Translations under genes and position numbers: made by a program
Part shown: piece by piece, positions 33,092 through 51,105 of the stretch
How the letters are laid out: every line of letters starts with the position of its first letter
Numbering within the stretch: position 1 is the first letter of the stretch
Notes under the pieces: model-generated
What the model was told of the DNA's origin: nothing
What the model saw: only the letters and a program-made list of their open reading frames with translations
Databases searched by the model: none
Virus record (IMG/VR): IMGVR_UViG_3300032246_001368
Span: 47,584-111,583 of that record
Strand: one strand, 5' to 3'
From: a virus
Length of the DNA: 64,000 bases

Positions 33092-33116
33092 TTTCCTATA
33101 ACAATTTACATATTAT
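33088..33116 (+). promoter_or_regulatory. Leaderless promoter (TTGATT-17-TATTAT-6-ATG)
   Basis: -10 TATTAT then ATATAC and ATG 33123; overlaps the end of the preceding gene. Confidence 0.65.
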
Positions 33117-33122
33117 ATATAC

Positions 33123-33599
33123 ATGAAAAAAATTGTAATCAATAAACAATTCGGCGGATTCGGATTATCCCCAGCGGGTCTTAAACGTTGGTGCGAACTC
33201 CAAGACAAAGAGTGTTACTTCTTTAAGAGGACAGATTTGAGTCCAGAAGGTTCGTATGAGCCCATTACAGAAGAAGAAGCTAGAGAACAAAAACTATTTT
33301 GGAGTGCCTTTAATGTTCCTAATCCAAATGAAGTACTGCCAGATCAATCCAATTTCTATGAAATGTCTTTAGAAGAAAGAGCATCTTCCAATGCAGAATA
33401 TGAGAAATACAGAGTAAGCGACAGAGACATACCTCGTGATGACAAGTATCTCATTCAAGTAGTTAATGAACTTAAAAAGAATGCTAATGGTTTTGCTGCA
33501 GATCTTAAAGTGGTTTCTATTCCAGATGATGTTGATTGGGTTATAGAAGATTATGACGGATCAGAACACATTGCCGAAGTCCATAGAACCTGGTGTTAA
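33123..33599 (+). CDS. Conserved phage protein family, copy 1
   Basis: 158 aa. Signature KIVINKQFGGFGLSPAGLKRW, RDDKYLIQVVNELKKNANGFAADLKVVSIPDDVDW and EDYDGSEHIAEVHRTW; a widespread phage family of unknown function. A second copy (154 aa) is at 34536, so the gene was duplicated locally. Confidence 0.7.
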   Translation: MKKIVINKQFGGFGLSPAGLKRWCELQDKECYFFKRTDLSPEGSYEPITEEEAREQKLFWSAFNVPNPNEVLPDQSNFYEMSLEERASSNAEYEKYRVSDRDIPRDDKYLIQVVNELKKNANGFAADLKVVSIPDDVDWVIEDYDGSEHIAEVHRTWC

Positions 33600-35610: not shown

Positions 35611-35639
35611 TTGCATTGTCCTAAAATTTCTAATATACT
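35611..35639 (+). promoter_or_regulatory. Leaderless promoter (TTGCAT-17-TATACT-6-ATG)
   Basis: Contains the TGTCCTAAA element shared with the promoter at 61670; six bases to ATG 35646. Confidence 0.7.
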
Positions 35640-35645
35640 GATAGT

Positions 35646-36050
35646 ATGAAAATTAAAGCTGTAATCAACTACCCACTTATCACCGAAGATTCAAAGGGAA
35701 ATGTAGTCTATCGCAAGGACTCAAATGGGTTTGAAATTTGGCAGGAATATGATGAGAATAATAATAGAATTCATCGCAAGGACTCAAATGGGTTTGAAAT
35801 TTGGTATGAATATGATGAGAATCATAATATAATTTATCGCAAGGACTCAAATGGGTTTGAAATTTGGCAGGAATATGATGAGAATCATAATATAATTTAT
35901 CGCAAGGACTCTGAAGGATTTGAAGATTGGACTTGGTATGATTCAGAAGGATATAAAATTCCTAATCCGAACCTAGTAACAGAAGTCACTTTTGATGACA
36001 TTGCTAAGAAGTTTGGTGTTGATGTAAAAAATTTGAAGATTAAGAAGTAG
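35646..36050 (+). CDS. 21-residue repeat protein
   Basis: 134 aa. Four repeats of RKDSNGFEIWQEYDENNNRIH-type (21 aa), like MORN/YD-type antiparallel strand repeats, flanked by short unique ends. Repeat proteins of this kind usually bind surfaces; target unknown. Confidence 0.6.
   Translation: MKIKAVINYPLITEDSKGNVVYRKDSNGFEIWQEYDENNNRIHRKDSNGFEIWYEYDENHNIIYRKDSNGFEIWQEYDENHNIIYRKDSEGFEDWTWYDSEGYKIPNPNLVTEVTFDDIAKKFGVDVKNLKIKK
35712..35963 (+). repeat. 63-bp tandem repeats, four units
   Basis: Units begin at 35712, 35775, 35838 and 35901 (CGCAAGGACTC). The first three are almost identical at DNA level, implying recent expansion. Confidence 0.85.
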
Positions 36051-36360: not shown

Positions 36361-36389
36361 TTGACACCTCCTCCTAAAGCATATATAAT
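36361..36389 (+). promoter_or_regulatory. CCTCCT-type leaderless promoter
   Basis: TTGACA-17-TATAAT, six bases, ATG 36396; the best -10 of this family. Confidence 0.75.
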
Positions 36390-36395
36390 AGACTT

Positions 36396-36608
36396 ATGAA
36401 TAAAAAAGCTATCGCCGAACATTTTCTCAACCCCAACCAACCCAACCCCATACCTATGCCTCCTACATCCTTTCCTATTGCTAAAGCCACAGCCTTGAAT
36501 CTTTTCAAAGTATTTGGTTATACATACACAATCTTCTGTGTAATCTATGTCACTCTTTCTATATTATTCTCTACTGCCTATCAGATCGGTAAATTCTTTA
36601 GCCATTAA
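36396..36608 (+). CDS. Single-span membrane protein
   Basis: 70 aa: Pro-rich N-terminus (NPNQPNPIPMPPTSFP) and a transmembrane helix (YTIFCVIYVTLSILFSTAY). Unknown. Confidence 0.5.
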   Translation: MNKKAIAEHFLNPNQPNPIPMPPTSFPIAKATALNLFKVFGYTYTIFCVIYVTLSILFSTAYQIGKFFSH

Positions 36609-38393: not shown

Positions 38394-38807
38394 TTCCCGG
38401 GAACTAATATTAGTAACAATATAGTATATATAAGAAGAAAACATATATAGAACTACTGTATTGTAGAATACAATATAGTTAATAACATACTTTATATAGA
38501 GAGAATAAAGAAAATACATAGATAATCTCTATAGAACAACTCTTTAATAGGCCTTTATAATACCTTAGGGAGAACAAAGGAATCAGAAACAAGGGAAAGT
38601 AATAAGAAGACTATATAAAGGATCTAATAAGGTCTAAAGGGGTATAATAAGAATCCTAAGGAATAAAGGGTTAATAAAGTGTATAAACCTTCCGCCCCCC
38701 AATTTTTCCCACAGACCAAATTAATTTTATAGGAATTTTTGGGAAAGGGCAAGCAAAAAAGCAGGATATTAGGGAACACCCACCCAGCACAGGGGGTATT
38801 CAGTAAC

Positions 38808-38882
38808 GACCGGTTGTTAACTTTTTAACGACCGGTCCATATCTTTTTTAACGACCGGTTGTTAACTTTTTTAATGACCGGT
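38808..38882. repeat. Four GACCGGT iterons, 22-23 bp apart
   Basis: GACCGGT starts at 38808, 38830, 38853 and 38876; two have TGTTAACTTTTT after the core. Spacing of about two helical turns suggests cooperative binding on one face of DNA. The core recurs at 47526-47646. Confidence 0.75.
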
Positions 38883-38908
38883 CGGTATAGAACGCGCATA
38901 CCTATATA

Positions 38909-38998
38909 CTAATATACCCCCTGAGGAAACTCACGCCAAAAATTGAGGCTTGACCTTTCCAGAGAATTCCTATATACTTCCCTGGGTGCAGCCGGCAT
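38909..38998 (-). CDS. Possible 29-aa leaderless ORF
   Basis: MPAAPREVYRNSLE... to ...FPQGVY. Preceded on the minus strand by TTTCCCC and TATAAT at the promoter geometry used elsewhere. Speculative. Confidence 0.3.
   Translation of the reverse strand: MPAAPREVYRNSLERSSLNFWREFPQGVY
38950..38978 (+). promoter_or_regulatory. Early-type promoter without clear gene
   Basis: TTGACC-17-TATACT, seven bases to a GTG that opens only a 13-codon frame. May drive an RNA or tiny peptide. Confidence 0.4.
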
Positions 38999-39014
38999 TT
39001 GGGGTCCAGTTCAA

Positions 39015-39104
39015 TTATATAGGATAATAGGGGAAAGGTCCCGCCTCAAAGGCGCTAGGAATCAGAGCAGCCTCGGTGGCTTGCGTATCAGTCATACGCT
39101 CCAT
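39015..39104 (-). CDS. Possible 29-aa ORF
   Basis: MERMTDTQATEAAL... to ...PFPYYPI. Minus-strand TTTCCC and TATACT lie upstream; a direct repeat GGGAAAGGTCCCGCC flanks this and the neighbouring promoter. Speculative. Confidence 0.3.
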   Translation of the reverse strand: MERMTDTQATEAALIPSAFEAGPFPYYPI

Positions 39105-39109
39105 TTTTA

Positions 39110-39697
39110 TTATACTTTTAGTATAGAGGAATTAGAGGGAAAGGTCCCGCCCTTTTTACAATTATCTTCGCCCCAAAGAGGTTGTAGGTTAGTATAATGG
39201 AAACACTCTTTCTTTTGGGACTCTTCAAATAGATTAAACATACAACAAGGCTTGATATGATCTACATGCCACACCCCATAGTTATCCCAAGACATACCCT
39301 CTGTGAATTGTGACTCTAGGTGTTTCTTTAAAAAGGATAGGGAACAACCCACTAGGTCCTCGGTTCTAAGGGTGTTTGATTTCTGTTTAATAACCTGTCT
39401 CAGACGATGTCTAAGGCCCTTTCTAAGTCTATAGGTTATATTGGTTTTATTTAATTCCCTTTCTTTCTCTTTAACATAGGGTCTATTGCGGTAAGCTTTT
39501 CTATATCCCTTACGGTTAGGGGATCGTTCTCTTTGGTATTCTCTTAGTTTCTCCTTATTATTCTTTTCATAGAGGGAATGATAGGATTTCTTACACACCT
39601 TACACTTACTCATATAGCCGGTTACATTTCTTCTGTCTTTAAAAAATTCTTCCACCGGCTTTTCTGTCTGGCAATTACCACAAAATTTTGTTATCAT
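39110..39697 (-). CDS. HNH endonuclease
   Basis: 195 aa. N-terminal zinc finger (FCGNCQTEKPVEEFF, SKCKVCKKSYH), a basic helical linker, and an HNH core near residue 145-185 (WHVDHIKPCCMFNLFE, CFHYTNLQPLWGEDNCKKG). A free-standing homing-type endonuclease. Starts at ATG 39697; a longer frame begins at 39715. Confidence 0.75.
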   Translation of the reverse strand: MITKFCGNCQTEKPVEEFFKDRRNVTGYMSKCKVCKKSYHSLYEKNNKEKLREYQRERSPNRKGYRKAYRNRPYVKEKERELNKTNITYRLRKGLRHRLRQVIKQKSNTLRTEDLVGCSLSFLKKHLESQFTEGMSWDNYGVWHVDHIKPCCMFNLFEESQKKECFHYTNLQPLWGEDNCKKGGTFPSNSSILKV

Positions 39698-39894
39698 AAT
39701 AGTACTTATCCCCAACCCTCATTTAATCAAGACAAGTGCCAGTCCCCTACCCTCGGGGTTCTATCCCCTGTTAGCCCTGAGTCACGATCGAGGCTCTCGT
39801 TGTTTTGATTATGTATATAGTATATCTGATTATGGGGGAAACCTCCAGCCTATAGCTTTCCCAGAATCTTCTTTTCTTTTCCCACAATCGCTAT

Positions 39895-39900
39895 TATAAT
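39895..39900 (+). promoter_or_regulatory. -10 TATAAT with TTTCCC element
   Basis: TTTCCC in register, TATAAT, AAGGGC, ATG 39907; -35 is poor (TTTTCT). Confidence 0.6.
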
Positions 39901-39906
39901 AAGGGC

Positions 39907-40116
39907 ATGAAAAACAAAAACACACCTATTGAAGGTTCTATCATGGAAGGCGTCTCTGTTCGTACTGGTGTTCACAAGTATGATGATAAGAATAGGACGG
40001 TAGTAGAATTGACCTTTAATAGTTACAATTGTTCCTATGTTCAAGTTATTGACCTAGTAACCGCGGCGAGTCTTATTAAACAGCTTAGGGAACAAGGTAT
40101 TAGCCAGGCTGATTAG
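39907..40116 (+). CDS. Small early protein, unknown
   Basis: 69 aa, alpha/beta (YDDKNRTVVELTFNSYNCSYVQVIDL). First of a long run of tiny genes with individual promoters. Confidence 0.55.
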   Translation: MKNKNTPIEGSIMEGVSVRTGVHKYDDKNRTVVELTFNSYNCSYVQVIDLVTAASLIKQLREQGISQAD

Positions 40117-40118: not shown

Positions 40119-40147
40119 TTGAGATTACCCCCAATAACCTATATACT
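40119..40147 (+). promoter_or_regulatory. Leaderless promoter
   Basis: TTGAGA-17-TATACT, AATAGT, ATG 40154. Confidence 0.7.
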
Positions 40148-40153
40148 AATAGT

Positions 40154-40327
40154 ATGAACAATAAGAACACCGTAAAGGATATCGTCGATCATCTGGAGTC
40201 CAAGGATATGTCCAAGGACTTCATCATTGGAACCCTGATGGCCATGCTCGATGGTCTCACCTATGAGTATAGTGGGACCGCGCAGCAGACCATCGATAGT
40301 TACATCAACCGCTACGTCAACAACTAA
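40154..40327 (+). CDS. Small early protein, 57 aa
   Basis: MNNKNTVKDIVDHLESKD...; helical. Own promoter. Unknown. Confidence 0.55.
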   Translation: MNNKNTVKDIVDHLESKDMSKDFIIGTLMAMLDGLTYEYSGTAQQTIDSYINRYVNN

Positions 40328-40333
40328 TAGGGA

Positions 40334-40362
40334 TTGACCTTTCCCCCTAAACCCTAGATAAT
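40334..40362 (+). promoter_or_regulatory. Leaderless promoter
   Basis: TTGACC-17-GATAAT, seven bases, ATG 40370. Confidence 0.7.
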
Positions 40363-40369
40363 AATAACA

Positions 40370-40795
40370 ATGAAAAACACCACCTCGTTTGATCTCGACA
40401 CCATCTCCTCTTACGATAGCCTCCAGAAGGCTGCTAGGGCTCGTTGTAAACATACTAGCAGGGAGGGCAATGTAGGCCTTACCTTCTCTATCTTTGAAAG
40501 CGCTTATGGTTGTCCTATTAAGGGAGACTGGGTAGTTCGCCATCCTGATATCTTTGATGAGGGAGCGGTATTCGAAGGCAAGTGTGTCTTTGTTACCGAT
40601 TACTGGAGGGTATCTGAGAATGAGGTATTCAGCGAGCCTATGGAGAATCCTACCTGGAGCGATATCATTAGCGAATGTAATCGCCAGCTCATTGATCCAG
40701 AGGACGGTAGTACCGCTTGCCTCTTCCTTGAAGGCTTCTATGAGCTCGAGCCTAAAGACGGATGCCGAGTATTTGATATCTGTTGGGGCTCTTAA
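40370..40795 (+). CDS. Early protein, unknown
   Basis: 141 aa, strand-rich (VGLTFSIFESAYGCPIKGDWVV). Codon use is GC-richer than the structural genes. Unknown. Confidence 0.55.
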   Translation: MKNTTSFDLDTISSYDSLQKAARARCKHTSREGNVGLTFSIFESAYGCPIKGDWVVRHPDIFDEGAVFEGKCVFVTDYWRVSENEVFSEPMENPTWSDIISECNRQLIDPEDGSTACLFLEGFYELEPKDGCRVFDICWGS

Positions 40796-40798
40796 GAG

Positions 40799-40827
40799 TT
40801 GATCTTTCCCCCATAATCCATTATACT
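40799..40827 (+). promoter_or_regulatory. Leaderless promoter (archetype)
   Basis: TTGATC, TTTCCCCC in the 17-base spacer, TATACT, AATAGT, ATG 40834. Confidence 0.75.
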
Positions 40828-40833
40828 AATAGT

Positions 40834-41085
40834 ATGAAAAATAAAGCATACCAATTCACCGAGATGTCCGAAGAAGAGCGTTCCATGCATCTCTTCTATA
40901 CGATCGAAGGAATGATCGAAAGCCTCCAGGAGATTAGCAATGAGATGGATCCTGAGTCTCCTACCGGATGCAGTCGCCTAGCCCTCATATCTGATATGGA
41001 AGAGAAGATAGAGGCTCTTTACAATCGAGTTCATAAGGACTTTATCTCTAACAAAACCAAGAACGCAATCGCCTACTCTATCTAA
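40834..41085 (+). CDS. Small early protein, 83 aa
   Basis: Helical and acidic. ATG 40834 follows the promoter geometry; a longer in-frame ORF would read through the promoter. Confidence 0.55.
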   Translation: MKNKAYQFTEMSEEERSMHLFYTIEGMIESLQEISNEMDPESPTGCSRLALISDMEEKIEALYNRVHKDFISNKTKNAIAYSI

Positions 41086-41087
41086 AC

Positions 41088-41279
41088 ATGACCTATCGCC
41101 AATTCATTAAGCAGATGCAAGACCAGTACGAAGAGCATCTGGACGATCAAATGAAGCTGCAATCGACGCACGACAATGCGCTATACAGCGTTTTCTGCGG
41201 CCGAGTGGCACAGAGTGACGCCCCTTACGATGACATCAAAGCTGATGATCTCATCATGATGATCGACAATTACAATTGA
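41088..41279 (+). CDS. Small acidic protein, 63 aa
   Basis: Starts two bases after the previous stop; helical, Asp/Glu-rich. Unknown. Confidence 0.5.
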   Translation: MTYRQFIKQMQDQYEEHLDDQMKLQSTHDNALYSVFCGRVAQSDAPYDDIKADDLIMMIDNYN

Positions 41280-41286
41280 TTGGGGG

Positions 41287-41315
41287 TTGACCTTTCCCCG
41301 GTAATCCCTTATTAT
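41287..41315 (+). promoter_or_regulatory. Leaderless promoter
   Basis: TTGACC-17-TATTAT, ATATAC, ATG 41322. Confidence 0.7.
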
Positions 41316-41321
41316 ATATAC

Positions 41322-41399
41322 ATGCTTAAGAAACACCACGGAGGTATAACCCTACGGTTTACCCGGAAATCCATTCGAGCAACCCTAACCCTTTCCTAG
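41322..41399 (+). CDS. 25-aa leader-like peptide
   Basis: MLKKHHGGITLRFTRKSIRATLTLS; basic. Sits exactly where the promoter predicts the first codon, so it is probably translated before the 222-aa gene two bases downstream. Confidence 0.45.
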   Translation: MLKKHHGGITLRFTRKSIRATLTLS

Positions 41400-41401
41400 T
41401 A

Positions 41402-42070
41402 ATGAAGAAGAAGAAACCTAAGAAGCTTTCCCGGAAACAAGCCATTGCCGATTCCCGGGTACCTGTAAAGATTTCCCGGAAACGTATCCCTAAGAGCGAG
41501 CGTATCAATAAGGCTAACCAGTTCGAATACCTAGGAATCAATACCTGGGTAAAGACTTTCCAGGGAACTAACAAGTTTCCCCACAATAAGATTACCTGTG
41601 CTGAGTGTAGGCATAATACGGTTTCCATGTTTGGTAACCAGTTAGCCAATTACCTGGTAAAGTATAATGGAGATGTCTATAAGCTCCTCACAGAGTTTAA
41701 GTGCCGGCTATGTCGTTCCCTGGATAAGGAGAACATCAAGATCAAGGAGCCTAAGGTAGAGAAGGAAAAGAAAACCCAGGAAAAGGTATTCCTTTCCCCG
41801 GAAGAATGGGAGGCTCGTAAGGAGGAGGTCCGTAAGACCCTTCCTAAGATGAACCCTAACTACGAGACCGTTCAGATCGATCTTACTAAGGATAAGAAGA
41901 TGTGTTCCCAGGTAACCGCTATGGCATGCTACCGTCCAGACATCTTCCTTGATCGTGGATGTGCCGAGTGTGTCCTGGCTAAGAACTGTGCCTGTCCTAT
42001 TAAGGATCTCAATCGTATTCCAGATAACCGTCCAAGGAAATTCAAGCGAGCAGTGACGAAAGCCGCTTGA
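41402..42070 (+). CDS. Basic Cys-rich (zinc-binding) protein
   Basis: 222 aa. Very Lys/Arg-rich N-terminus (KKKKPKKLSRKQ, KISRKRIPKSERI). CAEC and CRLC around residues 60-100 and MACYRPDIFLDRGCAECVLAKNCACP near 175-200 suggest two zinc sites. Probably nucleic-acid binding. The DNA repeatedly contains TTTCCCGGAAA-type words. Confidence 0.55.
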   Translation: MKKKKPKKLSRKQAIADSRVPVKISRKRIPKSERINKANQFEYLGINTWVKTFQGTNKFPHNKITCAECRHNTVSMFGNQLANYLVKYNGDVYKLLTEFKCRLCRSLDKENIKIKEPKVEKEKKTQEKVFLSPEEWEARKEEVRKTLPKMNPNYETVQIDLTKDKKMCSQVTAMACYRPDIFLDRGCAECVLAKNCACPIKDLNRIPDNRPRKFKRAVTKAA

Positions 42071-42095
42071 CATTTCCCAGGAACTATACTATTAT
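42067..42095 (+). promoter_or_regulatory. Leaderless promoter
   Basis: TTGACA-17-TATTAT, TCTTAT, ATG 42102; the -35 box overlaps the preceding stop. Confidence 0.7.
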
Positions 42096-42101
42096 TCTTA
42101 T

Positions 42102-42329
42102 ATGCACGTATGGCAATCTAAACAAGTCTTGAAAACAGCTAGCACCTATCAGGTACCTAGTCACGTCAAGAACAGGACCAAGTCTATCTCCAATGAAGAT
42201 TGGGAGAGGCAGGTTAAGGAATTCAAGTACAACAAGTTAGTCGTACTCGATAAGGTACCCAAGGCAGTCAGAAAGCCAAGGGAGGACGGTAAACAAACAA
42301 ACAACACAGAAAGGAAAAACAGACAATGA
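42102..42329 (+). CDS. Small basic protein, 75 aa
   Basis: Basic, disordered C-terminus (KAVRKPREDGKQTNNTERKN). ATGA overlap with the next gene. Confidence 0.5.
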   Translation: MHVWQSKQVLKTASTYQVPSHVKNRTKSISNEDWERQVKEFKYNKLVVLDKVPKAVRKPREDGKQTNNTERKNRQ

Positions 42330-42565
42330 CGACAATGACATCTAATAACACGATCGTTCGTAGCATCAGTGACCTCACCGGCACCGCAGTCTCCAGCCGC
42401 ATTGGCAAGACCGCAAAGCTTGAGTTGGTCTCCGAGAGCATCAACGAGAGCCGTTACGAGATTCTTGGCATCGTTGGCCGTAGTAACAATGTCATGTTGC
42501 GCCCACGTTTCTATAACGTTCGCAATAAGGCAGGTCAGTTCACTACTCGCCGCCGTAGCCGATAA
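42326..42565 (+). CDS. Small basic protein, 79 aa
   Basis: Ends with an Arg-rich tail (KAGQFTTRRRSR). Codon-optimised and followed by the best terminator in the array. Unknown; RNA/DNA binding is plausible. Confidence 0.55.
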   Translation: MTTMTSNNTIVRSISDLTGTAVSSRIGKTAKLELVSESINESRYEILGIVGRSNNVMLRPRFYNVRNKAGQFTTRRRSR

Positions 42566-42576
42566 TCCCAATCGTT

Positions 42577-42616
42577 AAAAGGGATCTAGTAAAATAAAAC
42601 CTAGATCCCTTTTTTC
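42577..42616 (+). terminator. Strong intrinsic terminator
   Basis: AAAGGGATCTAG / CTAGATCCCTTT with an 11-base loop followed by a T-run that merges into the next -35 box (TTGAAC). Confidence 0.85.
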
Positions 42617-42645
42617 TTGAACTTTCCCACTCAATCCCTTATTAT
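42617..42645 (+). promoter_or_regulatory. Leaderless promoter
   Basis: TTGAAC-17-TATTAT, ATATAC, ATG 42652. Confidence 0.7.
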
Positions 42646-42651
42646 ATATAC

Positions 42652-42903
42652 ATGATTGATTCAAACCTGTATCGTAAGATTGAAATGGCTGGTGAGGCTC
42701 TCTTGAATGATTTCGAGTTGACTCATCCGGATATGAGTGGTGATCAGATCCGTACAGATCTTCTTCTTGATCATGCAACTAAGATCATGCATATGAGTGT
42801 AGATAATGATCTCCTCGAAGGGATTATCGATAAGGATCGCGAAGACGATCCTGAGCACAAAGCTCTTCTCCTAACCTCTGGAGCATATTTCGTAACCCTC
42901 TAA
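42652..42903 (+). CDS. Small acidic early protein, 83 aa
   Basis: Helical (KIEMAGEALLNDFELTHPDMSGDQI). Directly upstream of a tRNA, probably in the same transcript. Confidence 0.55.
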   Translation: MIDSNLYRKIEMAGEALLNDFELTHPDMSGDQIRTDLLLDHATKIMHMSVDNDLLEGIIDKDREDDPEHKALLLTSGAYFVTL

Positions 42904-42911
42904 CCCTTTAT

Positions 42912-42989
42912 GCCTCGGTAGTCCAATTGGCAGCAGACAAGCGACTTAAAATCGCTCCAGTGCGGGTTCGAATCCCGCCCGAGGTACCA
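42912..42989 (+). tRNA. tRNA with UAA anticodon (Leu), class I shape
   Basis: Acceptor GCCTCGG/CCGAGGT, anticodon arm AGCGA-CTTAAAA-TCGCT (anticodon TAA), T-arm GCGGG-TTCGAAT-CCCGC, encoded ACCA. The variable loop is only about five bases, although bacterial leucine tRNAs normally have a long variable arm. Confidence 0.85.
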
Positions 42990-42997
42990 CTTTCAGA

Positions 42998-43026
42998 TTG
43001 ACCTTTCCCACCAATTGCTTTAATAT
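42998..43026 (+). promoter_or_regulatory. Leaderless promoter
   Basis: TTGACC-17-TAATAT, seven bases, ATG 43034. Confidence 0.7.
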
Positions 43027-43033
43027 ATAAACA

Positions 43034-43174
43034 ATGAAACACCTCCTACACCTCCTTGGTTACACTCAACGTAAGCCTTCACTCCTCCTCATGCACATGT
43101 GTGACGTTACTCACAGCTCCTGGATACAGGATCTCTATCGTACCAACCGCATTAACGATTATCTTATTAAGTAA
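43034..43174 (+). CDS. Small early protein, 46 aa
   Basis: MKHLLHLLGYTQRKPSLLLM...; His/Leu-rich. Own promoter. Unknown. Confidence 0.5.
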   Translation: MKHLLHLLGYTQRKPSLLLMHMCDVTHSSWIQDLYRTNRINDYLIK

Positions 43175-43177
43175 GAG

Positions 43178-43206
43178 TTGAACTATCCCACTAAACGGAG
43201 TATAAT
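43178..43206 (+). promoter_or_regulatory. Leaderless promoter
   Basis: TTGAAC-17-TATAAT, AATATT, ATG 43213. Confidence 0.7.
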
Positions 43207-43212
43207 AATATT

Positions 43213-43380
43213 ATGATCATTGAATTCACCCCTGGCAAGATGCCAAAGAGTAAAGAAGCTTTAAAGGATATTATCCTCGAGGCAGTCAAGAAGTCTTCAA
43301 CGAACCCTGAGACCGTTAATGCCGGCCGACAGTCCCAGGATAACAATACAAAGGCCGGCGTTCCTCATCATGCAAACTAA
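43213..43380 (+). CDS. Small protein, 55 aa
   Basis: MIIEFTPGKMPKSKEALKD...; first half structured, second half polar. Overlaps the next gene by 11 bases. Confidence 0.5.
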   Translation: MIIEFTPGKMPKSKEALKDIILEAVKKSSTNPETVNAGRQSQDNNTKAGVPHHAN

Positions 43381-43588
43381 AGTCACACTCACGGATCTAA
43401 TTCGTAACATCTTAAATACAGAACAGGAACTATCCGTAAAAGATATCCTTACTAAAGTACAAGAGACTATTGCAGGAGAGCAACTAACCATACAGGCCGA
43501 CTACCGTAAGGTATATCGTCACCTGCGTACGTGTGCGACTAAGACGGCACGAGGTCAGTTCTCCCTCACCGAGACCTCTGCCTCCTAA
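43370..43588 (+). CDS. Small winged-helix-like protein, 72 aa
   Basis: MQTKVTLTDLIRNILNTEQELSVKDILTKVQ... then ARGQFSLTE: the helix pattern and a terminal strand resemble a small winged helix. Assignment tentative. Confidence 0.45.
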   Translation: MQTKVTLTDLIRNILNTEQELSVKDILTKVQETIAGEQLTIQADYRKVYRHLRTCATKTARGQFSLTETSAS

Positions 43589-43611
43589 AGGTAAGTCTCG
43601 GCAACAATACT

Positions 43612-43705
43612 ACTGGGTTAATGTAATTGGAAGCATCGACAGACTTATAATCTGTGTTCGCCAGATTAGCGACGAGCGAGGGTTCGATTCCCTCACCCAG
43701 TACCA
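43612..43705 (+). tRNA. tRNA with UAU anticodon and long variable arm
   Basis: Acceptor ACTGGGT/ACCCAGT, anticodon arm ACAGA-CTTATAA-TCTGT (anticodon TAT, reads AUA), variable arm of about 22 bases with stem TCGC/GCGA, T-arm GAGGG-TTCGATT-CCCTC, encoded ACCA. Class II shape is normal for Leu, Ser and Tyr but not for Ile. Confidence 0.85.
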
Positions 43706-43726
43706 ATTTCAAAACAAACAAATTAT

Positions 43727-43900
43727 ATGGAAGATACAAACACATCAAAAGAAGCAAAGGTATTCCAACTCTGCCAAGACCTGGAAGACATGAGAGACCG
43801 TAAGAAGGCATCTGGTAAAGCCTTTAACGATGAGATCAAGCGTATTCAAGCTGAGATCAAGGATCTAATTGATCCAACGGAACCTGAAGAGGCTCCTTAG
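43727..43900 (+). CDS. Small helical protein, 57 aa
   Basis: MEDTNTSKEAKVFQLCQDLED...; helical. Lies between tRNAs, probably co-transcribed. Confidence 0.5.
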   Translation: MEDTNTSKEAKVFQLCQDLEDMRDRKKASGKAFNDEIKRIQAEIKDLIDPTEPEEAP

Positions 43901-43907
43901 TAATTTC

Positions 43908-43980
43908 GCCCTTGTAGCTCAATGGTCAGAGCAGATCCCTCATAAGGATTAGGTTGGGGGTTCGAATCCCTCCGGGGGCA
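43908..43980 (+). tRNA. tRNA-Met (CAU), or Ile2 if modified
   Basis: Acceptor GCCCTTG/CGGGGGC, anticodon arm GATCC-CTCATAA-GGATT (CAT), T-arm GGGGG-TTCGAAT-CCCTC. CCA not encoded. The paired 1-72 end argues for an elongator; lysidine modification would make it Ile(AUA). Confidence 0.85.
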
Positions 43981-43987
43981 CACTTTA

Positions 43988-44026
43988 GCATCTATCGTTC
44001 AACGGATAGGACAGGGCAAGACTTTA
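43988..44026 (+). pseudogene. 5' half of an interrupted tRNA
   Basis: GCATCTA acceptor strand, then D-arm GTTC...GGAC (Glu-like TATCGTTCAACGGATAGGAC) and GGGC as a possible anticodon stem. Its acceptor complement TAGATGC, with T-arm and CCA, sits 633 bases further on at 44659. Confidence 0.65.
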
Positions 44027-44027
44027 C

Positions 44028-44101
44028 GTGCCAGTAGCTCAATCGGATAGAGCAACGGTTTTCTAAACCGTAGGTTGCAGGATCGTACCCTGCCTGGCAC
44101 A
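44028..44101 (+). tRNA. tRNA-Arg (UCU)
   Basis: Acceptor GTGCCAG/CTGGCAC, anticodon arm ACGGT-TTTCTAA-ACCGT (TCT), T-stem GCAGG/CCTGC with an unusual T-loop ATCGTAC (A54 and T58 swapped). Located inside the split tRNA and overlapping the 3' end of the antisense HNH gene. Confidence 0.85.
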
Positions 44102-44590
44102 GTCTTTCAATAATCCATTATCAAACTCCCAATGGCAATTAGGACATAAAGGAATAACATTCTCTATAGAATTAATATCCCTCAATAAAGCATCGTCATT
44201 GAAAGAAGATATAGGTTTGATATGACAAAGTTCTATGTGCTTATCATACCCACAATTCAAACATTTATTACCTAAAAGAGGTTTTAACCAAGACCTAGCC
44301 ATTCCTCTTATATGTACATATATAGATGATTGATGCAAACCTTTTAAACATTCTCTAGATTTATAGTATCCCAATGTTCTGTCTTTATAAGATTCTTTCA
44401 AAGAACTTTTATATTCTTCCCAATGTTCTTTACATAAACTAGAATTCCATTTATGAGTAATGTTATCACATCTAGTACATTTCCTTTTACGAATTCGTTT
44501 GGGTGATGTCTTATTGGTATAAGTAGCCGCACAAGACCTTGAACAGAATTTTGGATTTGAAGTTTCTTCTTGACAATTAACACATTTCAT
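44063..44590 (-). CDS. HNH endonuclease inserted in tRNA cluster
   Basis: 175 aa from ATG 44590; an in-frame extension upstream would run into tRNA-Lys and is rejected. N-terminal finger (KCVNCQEETSNPKFCSRSC), a second Cys motif, and an HNH core (CLNCGYDKHIELCHIKPISSF, NVIPLCPNCHWEFDNGLL). Antisense to the tRNAs. Likely the mobile component of the 0.6-kb insertion that splits a tRNA; its last 13 codons overlap tRNA-Arg. Confidence 0.7.
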   Translation of the reverse strand: MKCVNCQEETSNPKFCSRSCAATYTNKTSPKRIRKRKCTRCDNITHKWNSSLCKEHWEEYKSSLKESYKDRTLGYYKSRECLKGLHQSSIYVHIRGMARSWLKPLLGNKCLNCGYDKHIELCHIKPISSFNDDALLRDINSIENVIPLCPNCHWEFDNGLLKDCARQGTILQPTV

Positions 44591-44635
44591 ATAATAATAC
44601 TTACCGTAATAGAACATATTATTTAAAACAAAAGC

Positions 44636-44669
44636 CTCAATGTTGGTTCGATTCCAACTAGATGCACCA
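44636..44669 (+). pseudogene. 3' half of the interrupted tRNA
   Basis: GCCTC region, T-arm GTTGG-TTCGATT-CCAAC, acceptor TAGATGC, then ACCA. Pairs perfectly (7 bp) with the acceptor strand at 43988. Confidence 0.65.
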
Positions 44670-44673
44670 TTTT

Positions 44674-44745
44674 GGAATCGTAGCTCAACGGTAGAGCAGT
44701 AGACTTTTAATCTATTGGCTATGGGTTCGAGTCCCATCGATTCCA
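44674..44745 (+). tRNA. tRNA-Lys (UUU)
   Basis: Acceptor GGAATCG/CGATTCC, anticodon arm GTAGA-CTTTTAA-TCTAT (TTT), T-arm ATGGG-TTCGAGT-CCCAT. CCA not encoded. Confidence 0.9.
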
Positions 44746-44791
44746 CTTTAATACAGAGGCATAAAATAATAACGCCGGCCTCTCTATTAAC

Positions 44792-44820
44792 GTGAATTTT
44801 CCCACGTAAAGATTTATACT
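44792..44820 (+). promoter_or_regulatory. Leaderless promoter
   Basis: GTGAAT, TTTCCC in the 17-base spacer, TATACT, TATAGT, ATG 44827. Confidence 0.6.
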
Positions 44821-44826
44821 TATAGT

Positions 44827-45027
44827 ATGAAAAATGAAATGAACCGACACGAGAAGCTTGAATGGCTCTATGAAACCTGTGCCACCAGCTTCCTTCAAAA
44901 CAACCTCATTCAGGAAATGGTTACCTGGATGGGAGAGGATGAGTTCGATAAGTTCTACGAACACCTTTGCCGCAATTGGGAGATTGCTCGAAGCCCAGAA
45001 GAGCTAGCAGAGAAGATGTTTTCTTAA
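44827..45027 (+). CDS. Small early protein, 66 aa
   Basis: Helical, acidic, Trp-containing (EMVTWMGEDEFDKFYEHLCRNW). Unknown. Confidence 0.55.
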   Translation: MKNEMNRHEKLEWLYETCATSFLQNNLIQEMVTWMGEDEFDKFYEHLCRNWEIARSPEELAEKMFS

Positions 45028-45034
45028 CGGGGCA

Positions 45035-45067
45035 AGGGGGGAGAGGTTGTGGTGGCCTTTCCCCCCT
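45035..45067 (+). terminator. G/C hairpin with TTGTGGTGG loop, copy 1
   Basis: AGGGGGG-ag-AGG / CCT-tt-CCCCCCT closing the loop TTGTGGTGG. The same nine-base loop closes a different stem at 46786-46818. Overlaps the -35 region of the next promoter. Confidence 0.6.
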
Positions 45068-45081
45068 AAATCCTAGATAAT
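45053..45081 (+). promoter_or_regulatory. Leaderless promoter
   Basis: -10 GATAAT, six bases, ATG 45088; the -35 position is TGGCCT next to TTTCCCCCC. Confidence 0.5.
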
Positions 45082-45087
45082 AAATGT

Positions 45088-45312
45088 ATGAAAAATAAGA
45101 AAACGTTCGAAGAAATCATGACAGAGTACAGGGCCCTGGGCGACATGATGCGCACCATGGTTCGTAACACAGCCGTAATGGAGCTGAGAGAGTGGGGCTT
45201 CGAGGAGATCGGTTCCTCAGATGTTAACTGCCAGATCGTCGACCTCTACAACAGCTACGGAGGATTCGACGAGATCGTACGCCACGGCCTCGAACTCGTA
45301 AGGACCCACTAA
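45088..45312 (+). CDS. Small early protein, 74 aa
   Basis: Helical (IMTEYRALGDMMRTMVRNTAVMELREW). TAATATG to the next gene. Confidence 0.55.
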   Translation: MKNKKTFEEIMTEYRALGDMMRTMVRNTAVMELREWGFEEIGSSDVNCQIVDLYNSYGGFDEIVRHGLELVRTH

Positions 45313-45313
45313 T

Positions 45314-45469
45314 ATGATCACCATCAAAGTAACCTTATCAAACGGCAACCGTTGGACCACAGGCTTCAACGGGACCCTCCAAGACGCAGAGACCTACTAT
45401 GTCGGTAGGTACTTCGAGACCGCAGACGAGCTTCATTCCCATGAATGCGTCAGAGTCGAATTGATTTGA
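45314..45469 (+). CDS. Small phage protein family (MITIKVT...), 51 aa
   Basis: MITIKVTLSNGNRWTTGFNGTLQDAETYYVGRYF... belongs to a recurrent short phage family, two strands plus helix. Function unknown. Its stop overlaps the next -35 box. Confidence 0.6.
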   Translation: MITIKVTLSNGNRWTTGFNGTLQDAETYYVGRYFETADELHSHECVRVELI

Positions 45470-45494
45470 ATTTCCCCCATAAACCAAATATAAT
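45466..45494 (+). promoter_or_regulatory. Leaderless promoter
   Basis: TTGAAT-17-TATAAT, AATAGT, ATG 45501. Confidence 0.7.
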
Positions 45495-45500
45495 AATAGT

Positions 45501-45824
45501 ATGAAAATTAAGAACGCCCGAATGCAGTGGAGTCAATCAATGCGCTCCAAGAAGTCCGTCATGTACTTCTTTCCTACCGGAGAGACGATCCTCGATAATC
45601 TCGCTCAGCGTCGTAAGCGTCCTGTAAAGGAGTTTCGAGCGCTTATACCTCAAGTATGCGCAGCTGTTGGTATTACCAATATGCAAGACCTGAAGTTTAG
45701 CTGGAGCCAGAAGGCTGGATGCTCTTGCGGTTGCTCTCCAGGATTCGTAGTTAAAGGTCTCTATTGCAAGGACATCTTCGTCGATGTTACCATGGAGAAC
45801 GACTTCGAAGGTCTTGGACTCTAA
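45501..45824 (+). CDS. Cys-motif early protein, 107 aa
   Basis: FSWSQKAGCSCGCSPGFVV is a motif seen in other phage hypotheticals; likely metal or disulfide site. Basic N-terminus. Unknown. Confidence 0.6.
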   Translation: MKIKNARMQWSQSMRSKKSVMYFFPTGETILDNLAQRRKRPVKEFRALIPQVCAAVGITNMQDLKFSWSQKAGCSCGCSPGFVVKGLYCKDIFVDVTMENDFEGLGL

Positions 45825-45826
45825 GA

Positions 45827-45855
45827 TTGTTTTTCCCACCTAAACCCATTATACT
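45827..45855 (+). promoter_or_regulatory. Early promoter with short leader
   Basis: TTGTTT-17-TATACT; ATG 45877 is 21 bases after -10, so a leader of about 15 bases is expected, an exception to the rule here. Confidence 0.6.
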
Positions 45856-45876
45856 ATAGGAACAATCAAACACCAC

Positions 45877-46143
45877 ATGAAGAACACTGACCCCACACAA
45901 AACTGCACAGACGCCCTTATCCTTTTGGTCAACAATGACGAATGGCTTCACCAGAGCTGGAGGAAGACTCTCCGCGCAGGCAATATGGTCCACGTTAAAG
46001 ATGCCTTGGAAGAGGCTGGATTCACCTACACTCCTTTCCAGTGGCAGGCTCTAGAGTTCGAGTTCGAGGACGAGCTTCAGGCTGAAGAGGATGCACAAGA
46101 GGCTAATGAGTTCTTCGTTGAGCTGTCCACATCAAACAACTAG
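45877..46143 (+). CDS. Acidic early protein, 88 aa
   Basis: Very acidic C-terminus (LEFEFEDELQAEEDAQEANEFFVEL), possibly a DNA mimic or adaptor; unknown. Confidence 0.55.
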   Translation: MKNTDPTQNCTDALILLVNNDEWLHQSWRKTLRAGNMVHVKDALEEAGFTYTPFQWQALEFEFEDELQAEEDAQEANEFFVELSTSNN

Positions 46144-46152
46144 AATAGACTC

Positions 46153-46377
46153 ATGATTAAGAAAGAACACAGAGACAGAACAGTAGACGAACTCGTAGAC
46201 CTCTATCAGAAAGAGCTTGAGGCTCAAGGACTTACAGGAGCTGATAAGTGGGCTCGCTTAGCAGGAATGATCCAGGGACATTTCTCCTTCAGCATGACTT
46301 GGATGGGGACCAAGAAGGACATACAACAATCTCTCAACAATGTGGTAAATGATCTCGAAAAGAAGCTCACAGCCTAA
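46153..46377 (+). CDS. Small early protein, 74 aa
   Basis: Helical (RTVDELVDLYQKELEAQGLTGADKW). Nine bases after the previous stop; operon partner. Confidence 0.55.
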   Translation: MIKKEHRDRTVDELVDLYQKELEAQGLTGADKWARLAGMIQGHFSFSMTWMGTKKDIQQSLNNVVNDLEKKLTA

Positions 46378-46398
46378 ACCTTTAACATAGAACATTTT

Positions 46399-46470
46399 AT
46401 GAAGAACACCAAAACAGTAATAGCAGCAATCGCAACACTCCTCCTCTGTGCCGCAGCCATTAAGGATTGA
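46399..46470 (+). CDS. 23-aa hydrophobic peptide
   Basis: MKNTKTVIAAIATLLLCAAAIKD looks like a signal or transmembrane peptide. Stop overlaps the following -35 box. Confidence 0.4.
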   Translation: MKNTKTVIAAIATLLLCAAAIKD

Positions 46471-46495
46471 ATTTCCCCCATAAACCTAATATACT
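46467..46495 (+). promoter_or_regulatory. Leaderless promoter
   Basis: TTGAAT-17-TATACT, AATAGT, ATG 46502. Confidence 0.7.
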
Positions 46496-46501
46496 AATAG
46501 T

Positions 46502-46762
46502 ATGAACAATAAGAACACCACATACAAAGGAGAAGCAGCAGTCCTCAAGTACCAAGAGATGGTAGAAGAGATCGCAGCCCTAGGCGAGAGCTACATCCTC
46601 ACCGAGATCGAGATCAAGAACAATACATTCAAGCAAGAGCCTAACCTCTACAAGCGCATGGCCCTCCTAGGAGAGATCACGATGCTTGAGAAAGCTCTCA
46701 AGGCCATCAAAGACATAGAGGCTGCAGACAAGTATCTTCTAAGTCAGACAGATAAGAGCTAA
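46502..46762 (+). CDS. Small helical early protein, 86 aa
   Basis: Coiled-coil-like (EMVEEIAALGESYILTEIEIKNN). Unknown. Confidence 0.55.
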   Translation: MNNKNTTYKGEAAVLKYQEMVEEIAALGESYILTEIEIKNNTFKQEPNLYKRMALLGEITMLEKALKAIKDIEAADKYLLSQTDKS

Positions 46763-46785
46763 TAACATTTCATAGCGGGTGGGTC

Positions 46786-46820
46786 GAGGGAGGAGACTTG
46801 TGGTGGGTCTCCTCCCTCTT
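46786..46820 (+). terminator. Terminator-like hairpin with TTGTGGTGG loop, copy 2
   Basis: 12-bp stem GAGGGAGGAGAC/GTCTCCTCCCTC closing the same TTGTGGTGG loop as at 45035, then CTTTG. Confidence 0.7.
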
Positions 46821-46825
46821 TGCTG

Positions 46826-46854
46826 TTGAGATTCCCCCATAAAGGTCTTATAAT
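46826..46854 (+). promoter_or_regulatory. Leaderless promoter
   Basis: TTGAGA-17-TATAAT, AATAGT, ATG 46861. Confidence 0.7.
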
Positions 46855-46860
46855 AATAGT

Positions 46861-47235
46861 ATGAAAATTGAGAACACCACACCTACTGAAGCTCAAATCG
46901 AACTCGCCGGCTACCTCCTCACGCGCGAGACCATCTTCATCGAAGAGTGTGAGGCCGATATCAAAGCCGGCAAGACCGTCTGGTATGGAGTCGCCAGCAC
47001 GAGCCTAGAGGACATCATGGGTCTTACCCCCTACCGTAGCGGCTATAAGGACATCGCCGAGTATGAGTACCAAGAGGACCTCATTGAAGCTAAGGAGGCT
47101 CGTAAGAACTGGTACTGCGATCAACAGGATGCCTGGGAAGAGGAACAAAAGAAAGAAGAGGAAGCTCACCAGAAGGCCCTCAGAGAGTATGTAAAGACTG
47201 AATACCAACCACTAGGAGTCCCAGTCCTAGTGTGA
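46861..47235 (+). CDS. Acidic early protein, 124 aa
   Basis: Helical with a Glu/Lys/Gln coiled coil (AWEEEQKKEEEAHQKALREYV). Unknown. Confidence 0.55.
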   Translation: MKIENTTPTEAQIELAGYLLTRETIFIEECEADIKAGKTVWYGVASTSLEDIMGLTPYRSGYKDIAEYEYQEDLIEAKEARKNWYCDQQDAWEEEQKKEEEAHQKALREYVKTEYQPLGVPVLV

Positions 47236-47243
47236 TTGGGGTA

Positions 47244-47272
47244 TTGCCTTTCCCCCTTACAGCTTATATAAT
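47244..47272 (+). promoter_or_regulatory. Leaderless promoter
   Basis: TTGCCT-17-TATAAT, AATAGT, ATG 47279. Confidence 0.7.
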
Positions 47273-47278
47273 AATAGT

Positions 47279-47515
47279 ATGAACAATAAGAAATACGATG
47301 AACGTCACGGAGGCCCTTACGATCGCGGACACGCCGACAGCTACTACCGTCGCTCCAGGGAGCCTCACTACTACATGGCTGGCACTGGAGGCTCCCCACG
47401 CATCGAGGAGGCCAATATGACGCCAGAGGAGATCGAAGCCTACCATGCCGGCTATGATGCCAATGAGGCCGAGGGAGACTTCAAGGACTATGGATGGGGA
47501 GGAGGCCGCTACTAA
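47279..47515 (+). CDS. Conserved small phage protein (YDERHGGPYDRG family)
   Basis: 78 aa. YDERHGGPYDRGHADSYYRR, PHYYMAG, MTPEEIEAYHAGYDANEAEGD and YGWGGGRY form a signature common to many phages. Function unknown. Confidence 0.65.
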   Translation: MNNKKYDERHGGPYDRGHADSYYRRSREPHYYMAGTGGSPRIEEANMTPEEIEAYHAGYDANEAEGDFKDYGWGGGRY

Positions 47516-47525
47516 GGGTCTTAGC

Positions 47526-47646
47526 GACCGGTTGTTACCAAGCTCAAGATAACAACCGGTCGTAATAGCAACCAGGGGTAATACGATACCGACCGGTATT
47601 AAAGGACCCCGGACGTTCAAATTTGGTATATAGGGTAACGACCGGT
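47526..47646. repeat. Second ACCGGT cluster with inverted repeat
   Basis: GACCGGT at 47526, 47591 and 47640 and ACCGGTC at 47555. The first pair forms a 13-bp inverted repeat (CGACCGGTTGTTA / TAACAACCGGTCG) around a 9-base centre. Same core as the iterons at 38808, so the two clusters bracket the 39-47.5 kb promoter array. Confidence 0.7.
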
Positions 47647-47733
47647 CGGTAACCCGGGGGGGCGATCTCGGGTACCCGGGGTATAGGTATATGAGGTTAT
47701 ATAAGGTTATATAAGGATATACAAAGATCCGCG

Positions 47734-47742
47734 CTAAATAGT
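47734..47742 (+). promoter_or_regulatory. Late-like promoter (CTAAATAGT)
   Basis: CTAAATAGT, three bases, ATG 47746. Confidence 0.4.
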
Positions 47743-47745
47743 ATC

Positions 47746-47874
47746 ATGACCAATAAATTTGATACTGTATACGAAAAACAGATGCATTGCTGGAAGGGGT
47801 ATAAGAAGAAAGGTACTAAGAAGCTTTCCTCTGGGAAGACCGTTAATAACTGCGTAAAGAAAGATTCTAAGTAA
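47746..47874 (+). CDS. Small basic protein with WKGYKKKGTKKL motif
   Basis: 42 aa. CWKGYKKKGTKKLSSGKTVNNC is a motif that recurs at the ends of phage virion proteins; here it is stand-alone behind a late-type motif. Role unknown. Confidence 0.6.
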   Translation: MTNKFDTVYEKQMHCWKGYKKKGTKKLSSGKTVNNCVKKDSK

Positions 47875-47881
47875 ATTGTTC

Positions 47882-47910
47882 TTGTCTTTCCTTTATAGAT
47901 TCCTTATAAT
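47882..47910 (+). promoter_or_regulatory. Leaderless promoter
   Basis: TTGTCT-17-TATAAT, seven bases, ATG 47918. Confidence 0.65.
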
Positions 47911-47917
47911 AGAGGCT

Positions 47918-48103
47918 ATGAAGAAAACAACTATTAAGTTCCGCGACAACAAGTATCCATTCATGACTACTCTTATTGGTGGTACCTTTAAGATGAATGC
48001 TCTTATGGGTGTTAATACCTTTAGGAAGCTGAAGGCCTTGGGTATGCGTTATAGTCAGCATAAGATGGCCAATGGAAAGATCCTGGCTGTCCGTACTGCC
48101 TAA
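47918..48103 (+). CDS. Small basic protein, 61 aa
   Basis: Basic, Met-rich (KMNALMGVNTFRKLKALGMRYSQHKM). Followed by a strong terminator. Unknown. Confidence 0.55.
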   Translation: MKKTTIKFRDNKYPFMTTLIGGTFKMNALMGVNTFRKLKALGMRYSQHKMANGKILAVRTA

Positions 48104-48105
48104 TA

Positions 48106-48156
48106 TTAATAGGGGCAGTTTAATATCATGTTGTATTAAACTGCCCCTCTATTAAC
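48106..48156 (+). terminator. Strong terminator hairpin
   Basis: AGGGGCAGTTTAATA / TATTAAACTGCCCCT, at least 15 bp, with flanking TTAAT/ATTAA extension. Confidence 0.8.
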
Positions 48157-48160
48157 TCAC

Positions 48161-48367
48161 ATGATTGATTCTAAACGTATAGCTGTTAAATTAGGTCACT
48201 TCTCTTGTGGAAGGGGTATCTTTGATAGAGAGGGTAAGAAGTATGTAAATCCTCATACCTCTGGAGATGATGTGTATCTTGAAGATCCTACTAACTACAA
48301 GTATATAAAGTATGAGAATGGTAAATTTGTAGATAGTGATGGATTTGTTATCTATATAACCTTTTAG
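48161..48367 (+). CDS. Small protein, 68 aa
   Basis: Strand-rich (KRIAVKLGHFSCGRGIF; YKYIKYENGKFVDSDGFVIY). No clear promoter; starts 5 bases after the terminator. Confidence 0.5.
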   Translation: MIDSKRIAVKLGHFSCGRGIFDREGKKYVNPHTSGDDVYLEDPTNYKYIKYENGKFVDSDGFVIYITF

Positions 48368-48370
48368 TTA

Positions 48371-48399
48371 TTGCCCTTTCCCTTATAATTTAATATTAT
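48371..48399 (+). promoter_or_regulatory. Leaderless promoter
   Basis: TTGCCC-17-TATTAT, ATATAC, ATG 48406. Confidence 0.7.
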
Positions 48400-48405
48400 A
48401 TATAC

Positions 48406-48813
48406 ATGCTTAAAAGAGACCATTGGACCATAGAGGAGGCAGAAGATATTCTTTTAGGGAATACTATTGCCTATACCAAGAGAAACGGAGTCGCTATTGA
48501 TGATCCAGAGTTCTATAGGAACATGGATCGTAATAAGGGTATCTATAAGATTGTTAATGATATTAAGAACTCTGAGAAGTCTATTTGGACCAATGATGAG
48601 ATTATAGACCATATTGATAATAATCAGTTTAAGATGGATGACTCTTGGACCAAAGAGGAATGGGACTCTAAAGGACGATGGAATCAAGGTCTAGAACAAT
48701 GTGCTATTCAATTTGGAAGCTTTAAAGAGGATCCAGAAGAGTCTTATAGTGCTATGGCCTATGATGTTTTAACCAAGCGAATTTATGTTATTTCCCCACC
48801 TCTTCCACAATGA
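48406..48813 (+). CDS. Early protein, unknown
   Basis: 135 aa, alpha/beta, acidic. ATGA overlap with the next gene. Confidence 0.55.
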   Translation: MLKRDHWTIEEAEDILLGNTIAYTKRNGVAIDDPEFYRNMDRNKGIYKIVNDIKNSEKSIWTNDEIIDHIDNNQFKMDDSWTKEEWDSKGRWNQGLEQCAIQFGSFKEDPEESYSAMAYDVLTKRIYVISPPLPQ

Positions 48814-50660: not shown

Positions 50661-50669
50661 CTAAATATA
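50661..50669 (+). promoter_or_regulatory. Late promoter (CTAAATATA)
   Basis: CTAAATATA, four bases, ATG 50674. Confidence 0.5.
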
Positions 50670-50673
50670 GGAT

Positions 50674-51105
50674 ATGTTATCGTTTAAGGAATATTTTGAA
50701 GAGGCTGAATTAGCTCAAAGAACCGGTCATAAAAGTTTTACAGGTAAGGTGTTTGTTTATTTTAATATAAACCTTTCTGCTAAATTAAAAACTCCTATGT
50801 TTTCTATACAGGATACAAGCACCGGGAGAGTGATTGGACACGAGACCACCTTCATGGTGAGAGATGCAATATTCAAGGTCTTACAATCAGGAAATGAAAG
50901 AGTAAGAAAGGAAGGTAAGAAGAATGTCCATGCGGGTGTTGTTGGATACTTGGTACATGAAGAACCACGTGTTCTTCCTACTCCGGTGACCTATAATCCT
51001 TACAAATATAAAACCTTTATAAACATGATAGACGAAAGTCCTGCGCTTGCGGCTGATTTAGTATCCTTTAAGGATAAGAAGCTTACCGCAGAAAATGTAA
51101 AATAG
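50674..51105 (+). CDS. Candidate internal protein (FKEYFEEA start)
   Basis: 143 aa. MLSFKEYFEEAEL resembles the T4 capsid-targeting sequence (FEE-A). Body alpha/beta (GKVFVYFNINLSAKLKTPMFSI; STGRVIGHETTFMVRDAIF). Function unknown. Confidence 0.6.
   Translation: MLSFKEYFEEAELAQRTGHKSFTGKVFVYFNINLSAKLKTPMFSIQDTSTGRVIGHETTFMVRDAIFKVLQSGNERVRKEGKKNVHAGVVGYLVHEEPRVLPTPVTYNPYKYKTFINMIDESPALAADLVSFKDKKLTAENVK

Follow-up and report, generated by a model that had tools for sequence, protein, structure and literature searches.

Promoters abutting start codons suggest leaderless, Shine-Dalgarno-independent gene starts, late-type genes included, in uncultured T4-like phages

Where would the RNA of a gene begin if its promoter lay directly against its start codon? 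This question is raised by a 64,000-nucleotide (nt) stretch of phage DNA (the window), bases 47584-111583 of the 111,583-base IMG/VR virus record IMGVR_UViG_3300032246_001368 (G000), in which many small genes are preceded by a sigma70-type promoter whose -10 hexamer lies 6 nt before the ATG. An earlier note, made from the window alone, had read an array of such promoters at 40-48 kb as the starts of leaderless early genes. Our results suggest, with a probability of about 0.83, that host-sigma70-type promoters and leaderless starts independent of Shine-Dalgarno (SD) sequences, those of late-type genes included, are common to a large clade of uncultured T4-like phages. Unit coordinates given below are window positions.

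One close relative, G001 (106,787 bases), was recovered by a motif search of viral contigs. It contained at least 10 exact TTTCCC-type units and was collinear with G000 across most of its length; both are partial records. In a more distant relative, G002 (176,807 bases), gene 26084 and several further genes have kept their promoter-start units. The major capsid protein of G000 had at least 599 relatives among viral contigs, and the best 80 of these loci are referred to as the wider clade. Megablast of 50,697 phage records gave zero matches to the array.

The 14 sites listed in the earlier note each consisted of a TTG-type -35, a 17-nt spacer, a -10-like hexamer, exactly 6 nt and an ATG. For an unbiased count without a position weight matrix (PWM), TTGnnn-N16-18-TAnnnT was searched before the ATG of open reading frames (ORFs) of at least 35 amino acids (aa), with dinucleotide-type shuffles as control. 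At a gap of 6 nt, 27 units were found in G000, compared with a mean of 0.8 and a maximum of 3 in the shuffles. Other gaps in G000 had 0-5 units each, the neighbours of gap 6 about 2, so that the motif was commoner at this distance from ATGs than at other gaps. The gap-6 units of G001 numbered 24 (0.55 in shuffles), and the sigma70-type promoters of the wider clade also peaked at gap 6 (23 versus about 2-3). A PWM scan added gap-6 cases at 35646, 36396, 37094, 39907, 44827, 45088 and 61705 and variants with a 7-nt gap at 40370, 43034 and 47918. When the whole record was scanned, the extra units were nearly all on the + strand, a few of them with a 7-nt gap. Thus, the promoters are present at 40-48 kb but are not confined there, since the arrangement is genome-wide. 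One exception was 45877, at which a similar promoter is followed by an ATG about 21 nt downstream.

If the -10 hexamer occupies -12 to -7, +1 of a gap-6 unit would coincide with the A of ATG. Sigma70 favours a purine at +1 preceded by a pyrimidine, and T or C directly preceded ATG in 22 of 22 curated units. Without curation, a pyrimidine was found there in 22/27 units of G000 (p 0.003), 19/20 of G001, 15/18 of G002 and 23/26 of the wider clade, compared with about 52% at other starts. Moreover, promoter and ATG were conserved jointly in 13 well-matched orthologous pairs of G000 and G001, in which the gap (6 or 7) was identical; the automatic pairings for 43213 and 46502 were poor (37-38% identity), and conclusions were drawn from the other 13. 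The proteins aligned from residue 1 in 12 of these pairs, the 40370 pair being offset by one residue. Within codons 2-11, mismatches affected 12% of first, 7% of second and 35% of third codon positions. Because they concentrate at third positions, coding appears to start at the promoter-adjacent ATG, which is very likely the real start. Finally, the first 40 nt folded weakly (-1.6 versus -5.5 kcal/mol for inner stretches; p 7e-10) and were A-rich (53% versus 31%), as would be expected of leaderless mRNAs. From these features we infer that the RNA of these genes begins at the ATG.

No SD signal accompanied these starts. Among conserved ORFs, an SD-like 4-mer preceded none of the 19 starts linked to a promoter and 16 of the remaining 103, and the SD position profiles of G000, G001 and G002 were flat and at background level. 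Among the controls (T4, RM378, HTVC008M and about 150 unrelated viral contigs), T4 had a sharp SD peak 5-8 nt before ATG, and peaks were also found in all the others. If the transcripts are leaderless, their translation would therefore take an SD-independent route. In the proposed mechanism, the array would consist of individual promoters of the host sigma70 type, one for each small and presumably early gene, each of which would start transcription at the A of the start codon or 1-2 nt upstream. Ribosomes would then bind the 5'-terminal AUG, aided by the A-rich, unstructured 5' coding end. The leaderless reading put forward in the earlier note is thus supported by the spacing excess, the conservation in a collinear relative, the pyrimidine at -1, the codon-type substitutions right after ATG, the absence of SD signals and the unstructured 5' coding ends, and it was even understated, as late-type genes behave alike.

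The earlier note had also listed TTTCCC, at the start of the spacer, among the elements of these promoters. The element is real: among 22 aligned units, the spacer was conserved as TTTCCCC at -29 to -23, AAA at -20 to -18 and C at -16. It is, however, not invariant. It reads TTTCCA at 32332, TTTCCT at 33123, TTACCC at 40154 and TATCCC at 43213, and some promoters carry CCTCCTCCTAAAG or TGTCCTAAAG in its place. TTTCCC was found in 12/28 gap-6 units of G000, 14/20 of G001, 3/18 of G002 and 0/27 of the wider clade. Because it is specific to the sublineage of G000 and G001 (plus the three units of G002), it would be dispensable for leaderless starts, and by this distribution it is a sublineage trait laid onto what appears to be an older leaderless layout. 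The TTTCCC/TCCTAAA spacer element is probably bound by a regulator or contacted by the polymerase.

Late-type genes would follow the same rule through a T4 gp55-type promoter. The structural-type genes were preceded by TAARTA, the T4 late promoter core, which peaked 6 nt before ATG in both G000 (15 versus 0.15 expected) and G001 (13 versus 0.17). In the wider clade, 77, 56 and 35 starts had TAARTA at gaps of 5, 6 and 7, respectively, over a background of about 5 per gap (168 starts in 80 loci). The same motif lies 26-28 nt before ATG in T4 and mostly 24-34 nt upstream in cyanophage S-RIM50, and spacing of 5-7 nt was not seen in T4, S-RIM50, HTVC008M, RM378 or Bacteroidetes phage phi14:2. T4 late promoters span -13 to -6 (PMC1524935), and the TAARTA peaks 5-7 nt before ATG supply a TATAAATA-like late core at -13 to -6. 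Because of this position, a TAARTA gap of 5 would be exactly leaderless, and over gaps of 5-7 the +1 would lie no more than 2 nt from the ATG. In the wider clade, 97% of the gap-5 starts had a pyrimidine directly before ATG, and 73% of the gap-7 starts kept a pyrimidine-purine step at motif +5/+6. A gp55 homologue was identified in four of six genomes (G002, G005, G006 and G007).

The rival explanation that survives best, although we consider it unlikely, is that the TAARTA preceding late-type ATGs reflects ribosome binding or a stop codon instead of a promoter, leaving only the sigma70-type genes leaderless. An A at -6, which is the last TAARTA base at gap 5, promotes initiation in F. johnsoniae (PMC6847099), and TAA may be the stop codon of the upstream gene. 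The stop-codon effect was rejected, however, as RTA followed TAA in 168 of 286 cases, a non-random share far above that of other triplets. Moreover, the pyrimidine-purine step at gap 7 tracks TAARTA rather than ATG, which favours a promoter over a ribosome signal. The distant placement of the motif in T4 and S-RIM50 and the lack of a peak in phi14:2 also speak against this explanation.

It is considerably less probable that translation proceeds chiefly from longer, leadered polycistronic mRNAs, with the adjacent promoters secondary and initiation relying on S1 or on Kozak-like A-rich signals as in Bacteroidia. Absence of SD sequences is typical there, yet the mRNAs are mostly leadered (PMC6847099), and many genes have no promoter of their own. 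Ribosome signals, however, fail to explain full -35/-10 promoters at a fixed distance from ATG, the base at -1 is T or C rather than A, and the control, Cellulophaga phage phi14:2, lacks such spacing. No S1-domain genes were found in the phages examined. Least probable of all, the promoters would be real and the true start codons further downstream, with the ATG at +1 belonging to the promoter or initial transcribed sequence; the first 18 nt or so after ATG are indeed alike among unrelated genes (AACAATAAGAACACC) and resemble a duplicated promoter cassette, but the codon-position substitution bias is already present in codons 2-11, an indel close to the 5' end of 39907 spans 3 nt, the wider clade keeps the spacing although what follows the ATG differs there, and downstream ATGs have no preceding SD.

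Several observations nevertheless weigh against leaderless starts throughout the clade. Many genes have neither motif and are perhaps transcribed from upstream promoters as leadered mRNAs. Random viral contigs also showed a small gap-6 excess, so that leaderless starts in themselves do not set these phages apart. The late-type units of G000 and G001 favour gap 6 without a clear pyrimidine-purine register, and no gp55 homologue was found in these two partial records. Because of the unclear step in G000 and G001, leaderless late genes are better supported in the wider clade than in the phage of the window.

If leaderless initiation is indeed the rule, the entry of these phages into translation would need no anti-SD sequence, and host or phage changes in that part of the ribosome would therefore favour phage mRNAs. 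Many uncultured phages, a large group, would have their start-site and promoter annotation changed and would also provide a natural system for studying leaderless translation at genome scale. Leaderless mRNA has precedents in bacteria and in individual phage genes. Searches of an open-access library turned up neither a leaderless strategy spanning a phage clade nor one involving T4-type late promoters, which is limited evidence given that subscription papers were mostly outside its scope.

The following sigma70-type units of the window, predicted to be leaderless where the gap is 6 nt, are on the + strand. TTGAGA-N17-TATACT-6 nt-ATG (40119-40156; 57-aa ORF) is conserved at G001 23662, and TTGACC-N17-GATAAT-7 nt-ATG (40334-40372; 141 aa) has a gap of 7 in G001 too. 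At 41322, the promoter and 6-nt gap held (41287-41324), but the ATG opens merely a 25-codon ORF upstream of a 222-aa gene at 41402, whereas in G001 the promoter adjoins the 222-aa gene directly. Comparison with G001 orthologs covered TATACT-6-ATG at 40799-40836 (83 aa), TATTAT-6-ATG at 42067-42104 (75 aa), 42617-42654 (83 aa) and 48371-48408 (135 aa), GATAAT-6-ATG at 45053-45090 (74 aa), TATAAT-6-ATG at 45466-45503 (107 aa) and 46826-46863 (124 aa), and TAATAT-7-ATG, a 7-nt gap unit, at 42998-43036 (46 aa). TATAAT-6-ATG at 43178-43215 (55 aa) and GTGAAT-N17-TATACT-6-ATG at 44792-44829 (66 aa) were aligned to G001. TATAAT-6-ATG at 39872-39909 (69 aa) lacks TTG at -35, and its G001 ortholog has a full promoter with gap 6. 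TAATAT-6-ATG at 26049-26086 (209 aa) is conserved in both G001 and the more distant G002, and TATAAT-6-ATG at 32297-32334 (132 aa) in G001. The site check and PWM scan together supported TATTAT-6-ATG at 33088-33125 (158 aa), TATACT-6-ATG at 46467-46504 (86 aa) and TATAAT-6-ATG at 47244-47281 (78 aa). The PWM scan yielded TATACT-6-ATG at 35611-35648 (134 aa; TCCTAAA spacer type), TATAAT-6-ATG at 36361-36398 (70 aa; CCTCCTCCTAAAG type), TATACT-6-ATG at 61670-61707 (61 aa; TGTCCTAAAG type) and the weaker TAGAAT-6-ATG at 46118-46155 (74 aa).

Among the late-type units, TAAATA-6 nt-ATG precedes ORFs of 217 aa (3168-3182, +), 1116 aa (4616-4630, +), 1722 aa (16802-16816, -) and 143 aa (50662-50676, +), and further units were found at 10593, 23792, 24037, 29631, 49837, 53617, 55791 and 57772. 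An endonuclease-like ORF at 39110-39697 (-), which has no Pfam match, has a late-type TAAGTA-5 nt-ATG start.

Next to this ORF, the intergenic region at 38690-39070 is highly conserved. Both of its strands carry promoters of the array type that do not lead into an ORF, and GACCGGTNGTTAAC/GACCGGTC palindromes recur in it, with related repeats at 47519-47700; the region is possibly an origin or contains small RNAs or regulator sites. A low-threshold Rfam search of the conserved intergenic sequence at 38.2-39.9 kb gave nothing credible. The array also holds five tRNA genes at 42912-44746 (Leu-TAA, Ile-TAT, Met-CAT, Arg-TCT and Lys-TTT), a cluster into which an HNH endonuclease gene (Pfam HNH_2; 44063-44602, -) is inserted. 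Elsewhere in the window are a gene similar to IMP dehydrogenase/GMP reductase (PF00478; 54037-55011, +) and an AAA/zeta-toxin-like kinase domain (PF13671, PF06414; 27695-28294, +).

A full-length tmRNA gene lies at 58784-59227 (+; 99.7 bits), and tmRNA scored above the Rfam cut-off in 6 of 6 T4-like records. The G000 tag seems, from the alignment, to read ACEDELCLMAA; ARAGORN did not report this tmRNA. Homologues of bS21 were above the Pfam cut-off in three of six records (G005:C1:70324-70455, G006:C1:134233-134376 and G007:C1:39344-39463). A broader proposal, for which we see the odds as even, is that this uncultured T4-like clade dropped SD initiation, its early and late genes being leaderless via two RNA polymerase specificities that obey one rule, and that its own tmRNA, together with bS21 in some members, may shift host ribosomes in favour of 5'-AUG messages.

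The phage is T4-like by its major capsid, portal and baseplate proteins (phrog_138, phrog_213 and phrog_219). Its major capsid protein is 28% identical to that of T4 and 33-34% identical to those of HTVC008M and S-RIM50; no match to it was found within the 98 kb of RM378 searched, where only the portal matched, distantly and weakly. A search of genome contigs for the host with the capsid protein gave only distant matches, to metagenome-assembled genomes (33-34%). The phage may or may not belong to the Far-T4 group, which consists of abundant uncultured T4-like phages with unknown hosts (Roux 2015, PMC4360716); the hosts published for this group are predicted ones, frequently Flavobacteriales (PMC7198788, PMC13037479). 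F. johnsoniae lacks SD sequences, yet 87% of its predicted transcripts have leaders longer than 10 nt (PMC6847099). Bacteroidetes phage phi14:2 has neither the sigma70-type nor the TAARTA spacing.

Different from the phage of the window, the cultured Far-T4 phage RM378 has SD signals and lacks the leaderless spacing. T4 (Straboviridae) and the T4-like cyanophages (Kyanoviridae) resemble the phage of the window in head, portal and baseplate genes and the TAARTA core, and a gp55 homologue is present in relatives. In T4, however, 26-28 nt separate TAARTA from ATG and an SD lies 5-8 nt upstream, whereas the clade described here has TAARTA at 5-7 nt and no SD. In leaderless genes of Actinobacteria, Deinococcus-Thermus and archaea (GeneMarkS-2 groups C/D), the -10 element lies about 6-7 nt before the start codon, SD sequences are lacking and +1 is at the start. 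The arrangement reported here differs from these in belonging to a T4-like phage clade, in extending to promoters of the host type as well as the gp55 type, and in having a full -35 together with a conserved spacer element. Among phages, the lambda cI mRNA from PRM starts at AUG, and the repressor region of PY54 reportedly produces a leaderless transcript. Such single leaderless transcripts concern one regulatory gene in an otherwise SD-using phage, whereas here dozens of genes would be leaderless in a genome without an SD signal.

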